From IMG/VR virus record IMGVR_UViG_3300030451_001066, positions 1 through 20,687 of that record: a stretch of 20,687 nt of DNA, one strand, 5' to 3'. The translations under genes were made by a program, and so were the position numbers. Under the pieces are notes generated by a model that was not told the DNA's origin, did no database searches, and saw only the letters and a program-made list of their open reading frames with translations. This DNA is from a virus. Shown piece after piece: positions 269 to 3,876 of the stretch; position 1 is the stretch's first letter, and every line of letters begins with the position of its first letter.

Positions 269-416
269 ATTCCCTAGCGACCCTTACGAGGGTCAAATAT
301 TTTACGATGCCGATACGGATAATACTTACGAGTATCAACGTAGAGACATCTTAGACAGAATGATTAATCGTCACAAAGATGTTTATTTCTGGGAAAACAT
401 AAGTAAAGAACTCTAA
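252..416 (+). CDS. Small hypothetical protein, 54 aa
   Basis: ATG at 252 lies inside the end of the upstream gene, in another frame, and runs 54 codons to TAA at 414-416. A GAGGA stretch at 233-237 could serve as a distant ribosome-binding site. The product begins MTYPSRFPSDPYEGQIFYDA and continues with a Tyr- and Asp-rich stretch. The P-x-EGQIFYD...YEYQ pattern resembles a short motif I have seen in phage structural proteins, but the rest is unlike a fibre and no function is assigned. Its stop overlaps by four bases the stop of the convergent - strand gene. Overlap with both neighbours and full use of the space support it being real. Confidence 0.6.
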   Translation: MTYPSRFPSDPYEGQIFYDADTDNTYEYQRRDILDRMINRHKDVYFWENISKEL

Positions 417-712
417 TCTTTACCAAACAAAATGTATTTAAGGCGCTTCATTAGAGGCGCTTTTTTTTTAGTTTTTCTCCTTTCAAAATAGTTAATCATG
501 TCTTGCTGATTGCACATTATTTCTAATGCATTAGCTATGAACTGAGATTGTTTGTGATTAGCTCGTGCTAAAACACTTGCCAACTCTCTTAGCTCGTCTA
601 TATCTTTGATTTTGTGAAGTTCAGCAATAGAACTTTCTACAGCAAACTCAGATTCTAAGCTTGGTCTTTTTGTAAGAATGTTTATAATACTTTTCACTTG
701 ACCTCTGGCCAT
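413..712 (-). CDS. Hypothetical protein, 99 aa
   Basis: ATG at 712 to TAG at 413-415. The product is mostly helical by composition, with Leu/Ala-rich segments in the middle (about residues 28-70) and a strongly basic C-terminus (RRKTKKK, then MKRLK). There is no signal peptide or membrane segment and I do not recognise the family. The start lies inside the end of the preceding 54-aa gene (19-base overlap), so the two probably form a small leftward operon. The 3' end overlaps the convergent + strand gene by four bases and carries that gene's terminator, which may constrain the Lys-Lys-Ala-Pro codons here. No clear Shine-Dalgarno sequence precedes the ATG, which fits translational coupling. Confidence 0.65.
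   Translation of the reverse strand: MARGQVKSIINILTKRPSLESEFAVESSIAELHKIKDIDELRELASVLARANHKQSQFIANALEIMCNQQDMINYFERRKTKKKAPLMKRLKYILFGKD
440..469 (+). terminator. Rho-independent terminator of the left + strand block
   Basis: A 10-bp stem (440-449 with 454-463, two G-U pairs) closes an ATTA tetraloop and is followed by a T-run to 469. The wobble pairs work only for the RNA made from the + strand, so it should end transcripts from 2-416. It sits inside the last codons of the convergent - strand gene. Confidence 0.65.
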
Positions 713-923: not shown

Positions 924-1181
924 ATGGCAGAAGAACAAGAAGAAAAAGAGGGTACGGATTGGGGCGAAATTTTTGGTCATGCTGTACGTTTTATGATTTT
1001 ATGTTGGTCTTTAGCGATGATGACTTTAGGATATATGGATAAAATTAGGAATGATGGCGCTTTTCTAGCTGGCCTGACCAGTGGCGTTTTAGGCTCTTAT
1101 GGTATAAGTGTGAACAAAAAGAAACCTAATAATACTGCTAAGATAGTAGATAATAAAGACACTAATGTAGGAATCAAATGA
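924..1181 (+). CDS. Small membrane protein, holin-like, 85 aa
   Basis: ATG at 924 to TGA at 1179-1181. The N-terminus is very acidic (MAEEQEEKEGTDW), followed by a hydrophobic segment at about residues 19-37 (VRFMILCWSLAMMTLGYM), a short charged turn (DKIRND), a second Gly-rich hydrophobic segment (about 44-62) and a Lys/Asn-rich tail. Two hydrophobic segments with charged ends in under 100 residues is the usual holin layout, so a holin is a reasonable guess, but no lysin gene is adjacent and holins cannot be recognised by sequence alone. It leads a rightward block; its stop overlaps the next ATG (ATGA), and the following genes encode exported proteins, pointing to a joint role at the cell envelope. 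A longer frame covering 761-1042 is a shadow. Confidence 0.6.
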   Translation: MAEEQEEKEGTDWGEIFGHAVRFMILCWSLAMMTLGYMDKIRNDGAFLAGLTSGVLGSYGISVNKKKPNNTAKIVDNKDTNVGIK

Positions 1182-1696
1182 AAAAATTACTGCCTTTAAT
1201 ACTTTTTCTTTCTCCGTCTAGTGCTTTTGCAGATATTACCGCAAAGTATGTAACCTCTGCACAAATATCAATAGACTCTCCATACGTCATTACAAATGCA
1301 GCTCCTAGCACTTACAGCATAAGTGGCAATAATGTAACAACATCTACAGGAACTGGAGATAGTGTTGTCACAAATGGGATTGGAGGACTCAACTTAGGAA
1401 GTTTAAGTAATGGTGTACCAGCTTTAGTTAATACAAACAAATCGGTTACAACTGCTGGATCTGCCTTCTCTCTCAGCGAAAGTTACCAAGCTGGAGACGT
1501 AACGCAATCAGCAATAACTCCAAGTAGCGGTATAGCAACTCTTCCTGTTTTAGGTGGACAAACAACAGTAATTTCAGGTGGCACAGCTGGTAATTTAGCT
1601 CTTACTTCATTATCTTCAGGAATCCATACTTGTACAGCTGGTGGCTCTGGCACAAGTTGTATCGCTTCAACTACTGTTCAAATCGAAATTGACTAG
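1178..1696 (+). CDS. Secreted Ser/Thr/Gly-rich protein A (Sec signal peptide), 172 aa
   Basis: ATG at 1178 overlaps the previous stop by four bases and has AGGA six to nine bases upstream. Residues 1-18 are a classic Sec signal peptide (KK, then a Leu/Ile core, then SSAFA) with cleavage expected after Ala18. There is no lipobox. The mature part is rich in Ser, Thr, Gly, Val and Asn, with almost no charge, typical of beta-structured extracellular proteins. Residues 93-102 (AGSAFSLSES) match a motif in the next gene. Two Cys (152 and 161) near the C-terminus could form a disulfide loop. Function is unknown: an exported surface, fibre or envelope-modifying protein is possible. The last codons overlap the start of the next gene. 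Confidence 0.75.
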   Translation: MKKLLPLILFLSPSSAFADITAKYVTSAQISIDSPYVITNAAPSTYSISGNNVTTSTGTGDSVVTNGIGGLNLGSLSNGVPALVNTNKSVTTAGSAFSLSESYQAGDVTQSAITPSSGIATLPVLGGQTTVISGGTAGNLALTSLSSGIHTCTAGGSGTSCIASTTVQIEID

Positions 1697-2126
1697 ACTT
1701 TGGCTGCTAGTTTTATTAGTATTACCTGTAAGAACTCTTGCTACCCCAGTGGTGCCACAGTTTAGAAGTGGTAGTTCCACGATGAGTTCAACCTCGCAAA
1801 GCGTTATTAATGAAACTATTACCTCGCACCAGTATAATTCTGGTTTTTCGTACTCAGCGTCTGGACACAATATTGAATCTGCAGACCTTAATGGTTACAT
1901 TAACCCTGCAACAACTTCTGGAACAACTCAAACTCTTAATGGGGTTCAGTTTAACTGGACAAGTCCAACACTTGAAGATGTGCCAAGATGGAAGATAGTA
2001 AACGCTGGACAAAGCTTCTCTTTAGTAGAATCGCTACAAGGTGCTGGTCTTTCAAACGTGACCACAATAAACAGAACAATAACAACTACCACAACCACAG
2101 AAACCACCTCTGTCTTTGGACAATAA
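1689..2126 (+). CDS. Secreted Ser/Thr-rich protein B, paralogue of the preceding gene, 145 aa
   Basis: The start chosen is TTG at 1689, which overlaps the upstream stop by eight bases and yields an ideal signal peptide (MTRLWLLVLLVLPVRTLA, cleavage after residue 18, the same length as in protein A). The ATG at 1641 in this frame would add 16 residues before it and overlap the upstream gene by 56 bases. The mature protein is rich in Ser, Thr and Asn, predicted mainly beta, with a Thr run near the end (ITTTTTTETT). Residues 106-115 read AGQSFSLVES, matching AGSAFSLSES of protein A at a similar place. There is no Cys in the mature part. Export by Sec is well supported; the function is unknown. 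Confidence 0.65.
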   Translation: MTRLWLLVLLVLPVRTLATPVVPQFRSGSSTMSSTSQSVINETITSHQYNSGFSYSASGHNIESADLNGYINPATTSGTTQTLNGVQFNWTSPTLEDVPRWKIVNAGQSFSLVESLQGAGLSNVTTINRTITTTTTTETTSVFGQ

Positions 2127-2704
2127 TTTTTTTACTTAGCCCTGTAAAAGTTTTAGCAAATACAACAGTAGCTAGTCCTAGCAGTAACGCTCAAGGTGTC
2201 GTCAACAATAATGCAACCATGATAACGCCATCAAGTTTGCCTCAGAATAAATATTCTCAAGGAATAGTTTGTGTATCTCCTAGCCTCACAATTACCCCAT
2301 ATTTAACAGATGCGTGGTCATTTAATCGACCTATCGAAACAGTTACCAAACAAAACATTTATGACGAGGACACAGGGGCAATAAAATACATTCAAGAAAC
2401 ACCAAGATTTGAAAAAGATAATTACAACCTAAATTATGGTATTTCTATGCAATTTAATATTCCTTTGGGTAATGGTGGAGAGCTATGTAAAAAAGCTGCA
2501 AAAGTAAATATTGAAGCTCAAGAGTTATTAATTGCCAAAACTAAAATGGAAATGGAATTGTATAGACTTAAAATTTGTGGAGAGCAAGCACGTCTAGGAG
2601 TAGTGTTTGTTGACAAGTACCAAATTAACTGCGATGGCATCAAACTAATAGCTAAACCTAACCAAGTTTTGCCACATACACACAAAATCAAACTAACTGA
2701 CTAA
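1988..2704 (+). CDS. Secreted four-cysteine protein C (start uncertain)
   Basis: The frame closes at TAA 2702-2704. Its only canonical start is ATG 1988, 139 bases inside the previous gene, and the first ~40 residues would then be an Asn/His-rich shadow of the Thr-codon run in gene B. The real protein probably begins near 2105-2126, just before LCLWTIIFLLSPVKVLA, a signal-peptide core that aligns with that of gene B (LW...L..PV[RK].LA), with cleavage before NTT (~181 mature residues). No ATG, GTG or TTG is in frame there, so an ATA/ATT start, recoding or a sequence error must be considered. The mature part has four Cys and a helical C-terminal half with Lys/Glu-rich repeats (about 2490-2610), unlike A and B. 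Function unknown. Confidence 0.6.
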   Translation: MEDSKRWTKLLFSRIATRCWSFKRDHNKQNNNNYHNHRNHLCLWTIIFLLSPVKVLANTTVASPSSNAQGVVNNNATMITPSSLPQNKYSQGIVCVSPSLTITPYLTDAWSFNRPIETVTKQNIYDEDTGAIKYIQETPRFEKDNYNLNYGISMQFNIPLGNGGELCKKAAKVNIEAQELLIAKTKMEMELYRLKICGEQARLGVVFVDKYQINCDGIKLIAKPNQVLPHTHKIKLTD

Positions 2705-2846: not shown

Positions 2847-2853
2847 TTATTTT
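2815..2853 (+). terminator. Putative terminator of the secreted-protein block
   Basis: The stem CCCTAT/ATAGGG (2815-2820 with 2836-2841, plus one possible G-U pair) has a 15-base loop and is followed by a T-rich tail TTTTATTATTTT. It points to + strand termination and runs into the last codons of the convergent - strand gene. The long loop makes it weaker than the one at 440-469. Confidence 0.5.
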
Positions 2854-3503
2854 ACATCATTTTTTTTCTTTGTAAGCTTTTTTGTAATCTGTTTTATACC
2901 ACTTTTAGCAATTCCTTGTATTACAGGGACAAGAGCCGCAGACCCACCAGCAACCAGACCAATAGCAGCAGTAGAAATAAGTACTTCAGGCGTACCAATA
3001 AATGTTTCTCGAAATGGTACGTCCTCATAAAGAGTAATGCACTCTGATTTATCCGAGGATAACTTATAGCCAACAACTTTTTCAATGCGTTTTGAGTTTC
3101 TGTAATCTCCGATTTTCTGCTCTTTCCTACTAGGACACTCAGGGATTACTAATTCTTCTTTTTTATTTTCAGGTGCTTTTGTTTCTGGAAGATCAGTTTC
3201 TGGCATTGGTGGAGTTTCATTTGATATTGGTAAATCTTCAGTTATTACCAATTGATCTGGTCTGTAATCCATAGGGAAAAAACTAGGAAAAACAGAATCA
3301 CAATCAGTAAATACCCCATTAGGGTCATCTAATAAAAGCTGAGTATTACCAGTATTTTTTATATCTCTATGCTGATAGGTACAACCAGCTACATTTATTT
3401 CTAAATTTGTTATTACAGGCAATACAGGGTCTGGTTTATAAATCTCAGGAATGTAAACTTCTGGAATATTGATTTGTCTGATACCTATTTCTGGTATCTC
3501 CAT
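2847..3503 (-). CDS. Pro-rich protein with C-terminal membrane segment, 218 aa
   Basis: ATG at 3503 follows the upstream TAG directly; the stop TAA is at 2847-2849. The first ~30 residues repeat a Pro-Glu-Ile/Val-Tyr pattern (INIPEVYIPEIYKPDPVLP). A middle section has a Cys-containing stretch (AGCTYQHRD), then DDPNGVFTDCDSVFPSFFP and a Pro/Glu-rich linker ending PECPS. A hydrophobic segment near residues 173-205 (ISTAAIGLVAGGSAALVPVI) precedes a Lys-rich tail (KKLTKKK). A Pro-rich N-terminus plus one C-terminal membrane anchor recalls unassigned proteins of marine cyanophages; this resemblance is from memory. It is the last gene of the late operon and may be a minor virion or membrane-facing protein. 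Confidence 0.7.
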   Translation of the reverse strand: MEIPEIGIRQINIPEVYIPEIYKPDPVLPVITNLEINVAGCTYQHRDIKNTGNTQLLLDDPNGVFTDCDSVFPSFFPMDYRPDQLVITEDLPISNETPPMPETDLPETKAPENKKEELVIPECPSRKEQKIGDYRNSKRIEKVVGYKLSSDKSECITLYEDVPFRETFIGTPEVLISTAAIGLVAGGSAALVPVIQGIAKSGIKQITKKLTKKKNDVK

Positions 3504-3746
3504 CTATCTTGTAGGACTTGGTGATGGTGGTATAAACTCTGGGATTGTCCCGCCTGTCATATCTGGCAAAGCATTGTCTAAAACTTTAGGCATCATGCCT
3601 TGTACGTTATCTAAAACTTCATTCATAACCCTAGCTTTGAATTGCTCTGACGTAACAAATCTATAGGCATAGTACGCTGTGCCACTCATTGAAGCTACCA
3701 TAATGAATGAAACAATACTTAAAACATTCGCTATTTTTTGAAACAT
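3504..3746 (-). CDS. Small single-span membrane protein, 80 aa
   Basis: ATG at 3746 is preferred; a GTG at 3785 would add 13 residues. The product starts MFQKIANVLSIVSFIMVASM, so a membrane helix spans about residues 6-27, followed by YYAYRFVTSEQFKARV, an amphipathic region repeating M-P-K-V-L-D and L-D-N motifs, and a Pro-rich end (IPPSPSPTR). No signal cleavage site is obvious, so an N-terminal anchor is likely. It directly abuts the 218-aa gene, and both carry a Pro-rich part plus one membrane segment, which suggests the two products work together. Function unknown. No Shine-Dalgarno sequence is seen at either start. Confidence 0.7.
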   Translation of the reverse strand: MFQKIANVLSIVSFIMVASMSGTAYYAYRFVTSEQFKARVMNEVLDNVQGMMPKVLDNALPDMTGGTIPEFIPPSPSPTR

Positions 3747-3876
3747 GATAAAAGAAGCATTTTTAAAGGCTCTAATGCCTGTCACTATTATAACTTTTTG
3801 TGCAATCTGTGCATTAGCACCACTTTATGTAACAATGTCTGTTCTTACAAGGCAAATGCAAGAAAAGGTTAATTAA
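3745..3876 (+). CDS. Possible small membrane protein on the opposite strand, 43 aa
   Basis: ATG at 3745 to TAA at 3874-3876. The product starts MIKEAFLKALMPVTIITFCA and continues with one membrane helix (to about residue 29, ALAPLY) and a polar end (LTRQMQEKVN), a credible mini membrane protein. It fills the only sizeable gap in the late operon (3747-3872). Its ATG overlaps the ATG of the leftward 80-aa gene in a CATG, and its stop overlaps the stop of the 60-aa gene by four bases. Against it: no Shine-Dalgarno sequence, no visible promoter, and an orientation opposite to every neighbour within the late operon. Confidence 0.4.
   Translation: MIKEAFLKALMPVTIITFCAICALAPLYVTMSVLTRQMQEKVN

Follow-up and report, generated by a model that had tools for sequence, protein, structure and literature searches.

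Introduction

Overlapped two-component spanins, such as Rz/Rz1 of phage lambda or LysB/LysC of P2, are late envelope proteins encoded in overlapping frames, with conserved cysteines; their genes lie in the lysis region, and their starts are frequently mis-annotated (PMC6139136). A survey of 677 phages found overlapping genes to be common among spanins (228 of 528) and found no spanin in 22 marine picocyanophages, with the suggestion that their hosts may simply possess a fragile outer membrane (Kongari et al. 2018, PMC6139136). Other phage-encoded exported envelope proteins are the CsgG/CsgF of pelagiphages and methylophages, the function of which (lysis or pore) is debated (PMC7029224, PMC9004378). 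For cyanomyoviruses, a cluster of hypothetical genes (T4-GC 218, 219, 234, 235, and 237, often accompanied by a plasmid stability protein) was reported in every phage studied except S-PM2, and the plasmid-stability gene was suggested to confer mobility; one virion structural protein is counted among the 12 genes found in 15 of the 16 cyanomyoviruses, the class to which this cluster belongs (Sullivan et al. 2010, PMC3037559).

Here, a gene block with the order M-A-B-C facing D-E was analyzed in a 20,687-nt contig (IMG/VR record IMGVR_UViG_3300030451_001066; the whole stretch is hereafter called the window). Its genes, and their clustering, are those of the cyanomyovirus T4-GC 218-237 cluster, for which the 2010 paper (PMC3037559) reported neither a function nor an export signal or overlap. 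Novelty, therefore, lies not in the cluster itself but in the wider virus range (sipho- and podoviruses as well as cyanomyoviruses), the near-inseparability of the genes, the maintained overlap between B and C, and the late-promoter motifs. The block shares with overlapped spanins (PMC6139136) the late envelope proteins, the overlapping frames, the conserved cysteines, the frequently mis-annotated starts and, in podoviruses, the location in the lysis region. It differs from them in that it contains no lipobox, in its candidate inner-membrane partner D, which has a single transmembrane segment (TM) at the C-terminus, in its larger and partly beta-rich proteins, and in being carried by phages listed as spanin-less. 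The phages encoding CsgG/CsgF are comparable in that they, too, are marine viruses of the same family with exported envelope proteins.

Locus and Gene Content

The window is a Prochlorococcus siphophage contig of the MED4-117/P-HS2 type, and among named phages it is closest to MED4-117 and MED4-184/P-HS2, siphophages of Prochlorococcus MED4 (C 92% identical). Its minus strand is occupied by tail and structural genes, at the edge of which the block lies (Table 1), with a 4-nt overlap between M and A. Beside the block, the window showed no endolysin gene, and an Rfam scan of the window returned no RNA families. A small open reading frame, antisense and upstream of the block (413-712, minus strand), matches phrog_30071, and an inverted repeat (CCCTAT...ATAGGG) with a T-rich tail, possibly a terminator, is found at 2815-2841 between the convergent genes C and D; its loop exceeds the length allowed by the scan used.

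Table 1. Features of the M-A-B-C/D-E block (positions in the window).
Feature	Position	Strand	Description
M	924..1181	+	85-aa membrane protein; two hydrophobic segments, basic C-terminus; DUF6450; phrog_721/2714/21865; T4-GC 218
A	1178..1696	+	172-aa exported beta-rich protein; B paralogue; phrog_564; T4-GC 237; signal peptide 1178-1231
B	1689..2126	+	145-aa exported protein; DUF6322, phrog_650; T4-GC 236; signal peptide 1689-1742
B start	1689 (TTG, probable)	+	overlaps the A stop; alternative GTG 1641; from alignment
B/C dual-coding overlap	1988..2126	+	139 nt; B C-terminus and C N-terminal extension in -1 frame
C	1988..2704	+	238-aa exported protein; phrog_848/1755; T4-GC 235; overprinted extension; four conserved Cys
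C signal peptide			ends VLA-NTT at residue 57
D	2847..3503	-	218 aa; Pro-rich N-terminal part, four Cys, C-terminal TM, basic tail; phrog_570; T4-GC 234
E	3504..3785	-	93 aa; one N-terminal TM; phrog_568; T4-GC 414; 'plasmid stability protein' in some records

Coding Status, Export Signals, and Kinship of A, B, and C

An earlier note on this DNA had described A, B, and C as three consecutive genes for exported, lipobox-free proteins, each beginning inside the preceding one in another frame, and the positions and frames of the three open reading frames agree with this description. The note overlooked the N-terminal extension of C, about 40 overprinted residues that precede its signal core, and the larger unit, to which M, D, and E belong as well. 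A, B, and C are real coding genes: in comparison with siphophage relatives, dN/dS is 0.06 for A, 0.12 for B outside the overlap, and 0.09 for C after the overlap. These values, well under one, together with the linkage of the three genes described below, answer the concern raised in the note that the frames might not be conserved together.

Signal peptides, whose absence would likewise have spoken against the note, were scored by a simple, home-made core-plus-site rule. Strong signals were obtained for A, B, and C (scores of 3.7-4.1), while among the 22 other window proteins three were weak (2.2-2.7), the membrane segment of E reached 3.5, and the rest gave nothing. The rule was also positive across relatives (C, 378/388; A, 353/378; B, 388/403), and the depositors of the P-SSP7 record annotated its B as 'possible SignalP'. 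Among the residues listed for the predicted sites of A, B, and C, no Cys occupies position +1, which is the lipobox residue expected of an outer-membrane spanin subunit. The envelope role proposed for the three proteins is probable, and they may also form a surface appendage, as the note suggested, or a pore.

The paralogy of A and B, which the note had concluded from a shared motif, is confirmed by hhalign (96%, E 1.5e-9), and the motif is indeed present as AGSAFSLSES at residues 93-102 of A and AGQSFSLVES at residues 106-115 of B (counted from the TTG start). Both families match DUF6322 (PF19847), B directly (E 1.1e-33; 116 bits against a curated cut-off of 30.6) and A through its family members (9 of 25, best E 1.3e-4). 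In profile searches, A matched phrog_564 (E 3e-41) and phrog_650 (E 0.0014), and B matched phrog_650 (E 9e-45). C, which matches phrog_848 (E 8.7e-79), belongs to a separate family (phrog_848/1755) unrelated to A and B. The alignment of the B and C signal cores offered earlier reflects a likeness no greater than that of signal peptides in general, and a paralogy of C with A and B is unsupported, the features in common being those of signal peptides.

Of 388 C sequences, 386 have exactly four cysteines in the mature part, which fits a disulfide-bonded periplasmic or outer-membrane protein. The AlphaFold models of A (pLDDT 49) and C (mean pLDDT 51) are too weak for fold assignment; that of C suggests, at low confidence, a long beta-hairpin followed by a 39-aa helix, and no significant match to it was found with Foldseek. 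This predicted hairpin leading into a long helix would resemble half a TolC repeat (PF02321), but C shows no significant profile similarity to TolC, has a single hairpin, and carries four cysteines. Tempting as the pattern is, assignment of C to the TolC/OEP proteins was rejected, since only one of 42 C members matched (E 0.15) and the hhalign probability was 8% against 3.6% for the reversed control.

Maintained Overlap of B and C

B and C overlap by 139-325 nt in 399 of 400 loci, invariably with C in the -1 frame and with lengths that vary by lineage (mostly 139, 166, 172, 178, or 292-325 nt). On the sole non-overlapping contig (L127), C has its own nearby ATG, which may reflect a rearrangement or an assembly chimera. 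No C-frame stop occurs in the tested overlap of any of 317 unique sequences from five overlap classes (a first analysis had one exception among 130 sequences), and stops appear in about 97% of cases when the B codons are redrawn synonymously. The redraws treat sequences as having no shared ancestry, so that the independent events are fewer than the count, but the pattern recurs in every class. An overlap by chance is excluded.

The frame opens where C starts. In the 139-nt class, a stop lies directly upstream of the C ATG in 57/57 sequences, and in the longest class, which has no start at 150-185 nt, the frame is open past 292 nt; the open frame thus ends at the start codon. This codon is kept in all 68 siphophage sequences (67 ATG and one GTG) and is ATG in 62/62 cyanomyovirus sequences; in the latter, its A falls on a free third position of B codons for Ser, Thr, or Gln. 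Within the overlap, the B frame is constrained (dN 0.053, dS 0.879), and the residues of the C frame are not (dN 0.272, dS 0.058). The overlap, therefore, preserves the readability of C, while the extension of 40-100 residues drifts freely.

The constant -1 frame raises the question of whether ribosomal frameshifting, instead of initiation at its own start, yields C as part of a B-C fusion, all the more as the signal core directly follows the B stop and most lineages have no adjacent Met. We regard this as very improbable, given the conservation of the C start codon despite a free third base in B, the stop directly upstream of the ATG throughout the 139-nt class, and the case of P-SCSP2, where the overlap is short and C begins at a start of its own with an ordinary signal peptide. 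Inspection by eye of the sequence before the B stop also revealed no classical slippery site.

Owing to the overlap of 139-325 nt, the annotations of several genomes omit C or truncate its start, which hides the export signal. C is missing from the annotation of S-RSM4 and S-SCSM1, and its start is placed after the signal peptide or overlap in S-CAM8, Bellamy, and P-SSP7; the loci with a missed or truncated C are L083:6001-6747, L442:5001-5645, L164:6731-7417, L181:6022-7002, and L443:8784-9239.

Membrane Proteins M, D, and E

M matches PF20048 (E 1.5e-7). A threshold scan of 321 M proteins found two TMs in 128 and one in 190, and the depositors of P-SSP7 noted two TMs by TMHMM in the M homologue orf43. 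With its small size, two hydrophobic segments, and basic C-terminus, as well as its place in the T7-type lysis region of P-SSP7, M would resemble class II holins. Nevertheless, it has no sequence similarity to any holin family, its only matches being DUF6450 and phrogs with no assigned function, and it is a holin candidate by layout. The window M (924-1181) is 84-86% identical in DNA, and identical at 80/84 residues, to the M of 18 MED4 podoviruses of the P-SCSP1/2 group (L444:3880-4134); it is nearer to these than to the M of MED4-117, which points to a recent gene transfer between viruses of different type that share a host.

D matches phrog_570 (E 1.6e-52); its family has four cysteines in 359/403 members and mostly a single TM late in the protein. 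E matches phrog_568 (E 2.4e-21) and has a single TM in 330/345 relatives. An inner-membrane spanin subunit would be expected to have an N-terminal TM with type II topology; the TM of D is C-terminal, and E, whose TM is N-terminal, is small.

Linkage and Distribution

Linkage was counted by profile searches over 414 loci fetched through C, and the counts, therefore, describe linkage and not prevalence. A and B were beside C in all 282 loci with enough flank, and D was adjacent in 324/346, E near in 246/258, and M near in 109/114 loci, so that the proximity of a small membrane protein to the three genes, noted earlier in the window, is a kept feature. In siphophages, M-A-B-C faces D-E, and the cyanomyovirus arrangement is A-B-C opposite D-(D2)-E-M.

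C was found by tblastn in 412 phage records, all marine picocyanobacterial or of marine type. A query with the P-SSP7 copy added T7-like cyanopodoviruses (P-SSP2, P-SSP3, P-GSP1, S-TIP37, S-RIP1/2, NATL1A-7, P-SSP10, and others) and the MED4 podoviruses P-SCSP1/2. That the block spans sipho-, myo-, and podoviruses infecting marine picocyanobacteria as a nearly inseparable unit is new here. Nearly all marine cyanomyoviruses carry it, and its listing as a hypothetical cluster dates from 2010; the view that such an arrangement is unusual among phages of these hosts is not supported. C was not found in S-PM2, P-SS2, Syn5, HTVC008M, S-CREM2, S-SZBM1, P60, or S-CBS4. In the record of S-SM1, M corresponds to T4-GC 218, D2 to 219, D to 234, C to 235, B to 236, A to 237, and E to 414, and homologues of the cluster genes are grouped together in the S-SM1 and S-RSM4 regions.

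A host origin of C was considered and rejected: the ten C-bearing contigs in genome assemblies come from Prochlorococcus single cells or are MAG/assembly contigs of unrelated phyla, and are probably phage. Cyanophage-like C on contigs labeled Nonlabens, Bacteroidetes, Lewinella, Euryarchaeota, and Gammaproteobacteria (L172, L174, L175, L176, L178) probably marks mis-binned phage contigs.

In a small search, orf42-orf45 of P-SSP7 were identified as D, M, B, and C (E 2e-4, 2.5e-28, 5e-10, and 1.4e-30, respectively), located between the tail fibre gene gp17 and the terminase gene gp19. In podoviruses, D is tied to the family through its C-terminal part only, and the copy in P-SSP7 is short and has no Cys. 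In T7, the interval between gp17 and gp19 holds the holin gene 17.5 and the Rz/Rz1 genes 18.5/18.7. D-M-B-C follows the tail-fibre genes in S-TIP37, and M-B-C faces D beside the large terminase in P-SCSP2.

Timing of Expression

The T4 late-type motif TAAATA was counted 15-50 nt upstream of genes, using unique cyanomyovirus-type upstream sequences. It precedes A in 140/182 and M in 80/166 of them, compared with 0-8.5% for B, C, D, D2, and E and 6% (107/1698) for background open reading frames, and its placement varies little, being mostly 30-39 nt ahead of A. M and A are the first genes of the two convergent units, both of which, judging by the motifs, are probably late operons in cyanomyoviruses. 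The motif is absent upstream of M and A in the siphophage window, where no T4-type transcription is expected. The text of a P-HM2 transcriptome paper (PMC5082946) gives no per-gene timing.

Candidate Functions

As the proteins are probably late, predicted to be directed to the envelope, and, on indirect grounds, mostly not virion proteins, and as their genes occupy the lysis interval in T7-like phages, an end-of-infection role is indicated. Our tentative proposal, which we hold at somewhat less than even confidence, is that M-A-B-C/D-E may be a late envelope-disruption (lysis) module, a lipoprotein-free stand-in for holin and spanin genes. It is supported by the presence of exported or membrane proteins throughout the block, and its gene context is that of spanins: overlapping genes, the gp17-gp19 interval in P-SSP7, and late motifs in cyanomyoviruses. 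Of the 22 picocyanophages listed as spanin-less, 17 carry the block or part of it (C in 13; B in P-RSM4; M in P-HM1, P-SSM4, and S-ShM2). The other five (S-PM2, P-SS2, Syn5, P60, and S-CBS4) have no C, and the block is, therefore, no general requirement for lysis. Searches of Pfam and phrogs profiles gave the block proteins no likeness to a known holin, spanin, or endolysin.

The absence of the block from some lytic cyanophages is also what would be expected of an accessory function, and a rather unlikely alternative is an envelope-remodelling or outer-membrane pore module active during infection (in uptake, efflux, or surface change against superinfection), comparable in role to the pelagiphage CsgG/CsgF but unrelated to them. 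All the proteins are envelope-targeted, the block is near psbA in several cyanomyoviruses, and the low-confidence hairpin and helix of C has, among its non-significant Foldseek neighbours, ring- and pore-forming proteins. No homology to OEP/TolC, the curli cluster of HTVC008M, or defence models was detected, the PADLOC defence models giving only one weak match (B, E 0.017) and no block profile (A-E, M) matching HTVC008M 1-50000, so that a curli-like system was rejected. As to superinfection blocking, which the earlier note had entertained, exclusion calls for early expression, and expression from the T4-type late motifs before A and M in cyanomyoviruses would come too late for it. In HTVC008M itself, a protein beside csgG (L437:10638-11963) has curlin-like repeats of the N-N-V-x-V-x-Q type, and the pelagiphage curli cluster may, thus, include the subunit-like protein that published accounts call missing. 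The late motifs would also suit late virion or assembly components, for example made through the periplasm or particle-borne and placed in the envelope at entry, and so would the tail genes that neighbour the block in the window and in podovirus genomes, as well as the Pro-rich segment and terminal hydrophobic helix of D, which would befit an ejected protein. We consider this improbable: Sec export of A, B, and C leads away from cytoplasmic assembly, and the gene class counted by Sullivan et al. (PMC3037559) would, as an indirect argument, allow at most one virion protein in the cluster. Virion proteomes are published for S-CREM2 and S-SZBM1, but neither phage carries C, and the GenBank labels of S-SM1 do not mark virion-detected proteins.

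Proposed Mechanism and Implications

Under the lysis proposal, M-A-B-C facing D-E would form a late two-operon envelope module that breaches the host envelope at the end of infection. M, with its two hydrophobic segments, would serve as a holin-like protein of the inner membrane; A, B, and C would leave the cytoplasm via Sec; C, stabilized by disulfides, would arrive at the outer membrane or periplasm; and D, anchored by its C-terminus, would contact C across the periplasm, the pair disrupting or fusing the membranes with the assistance of A and B. The position of the C start inside B would couple the production of the two proteins. Export signals, A/B paralogy, synteny, the maintained overlap, late-promoter motifs, and the podovirus lysis-region location are directly supported, and from them we infer the lysis function, the final protein locations, and the mutual contacts.

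A more specific and more doubtful version is an outer-membrane disruption system of marine cyanophages that uses no lipoprotein, but pairs the C-terminally anchored D with an exported, disulfide-containing, outer-membrane-inserting C overprinted on its partner B. Such a system is of a kind that has so far only been foreseen. D has the layout of one member of such a pair, and C may have that of its counterpart, with a putative outer-membrane fold. As D has no export signal, an external location of its large N-terminal domain would need unusual translocation.

A large share of Prochlorococcus and Synechococcus is killed by phages, and we know of no mechanism by which the phage progeny leave these cells. 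A late envelope gene block common to three morphologies, and found at the lysis position in T7-like podoviruses, makes this question of exit testable in tractable phages. If the lysis proposal is true, the block would be the way in which cyanophages without the usual spanins break the outer membrane of their host to exit.
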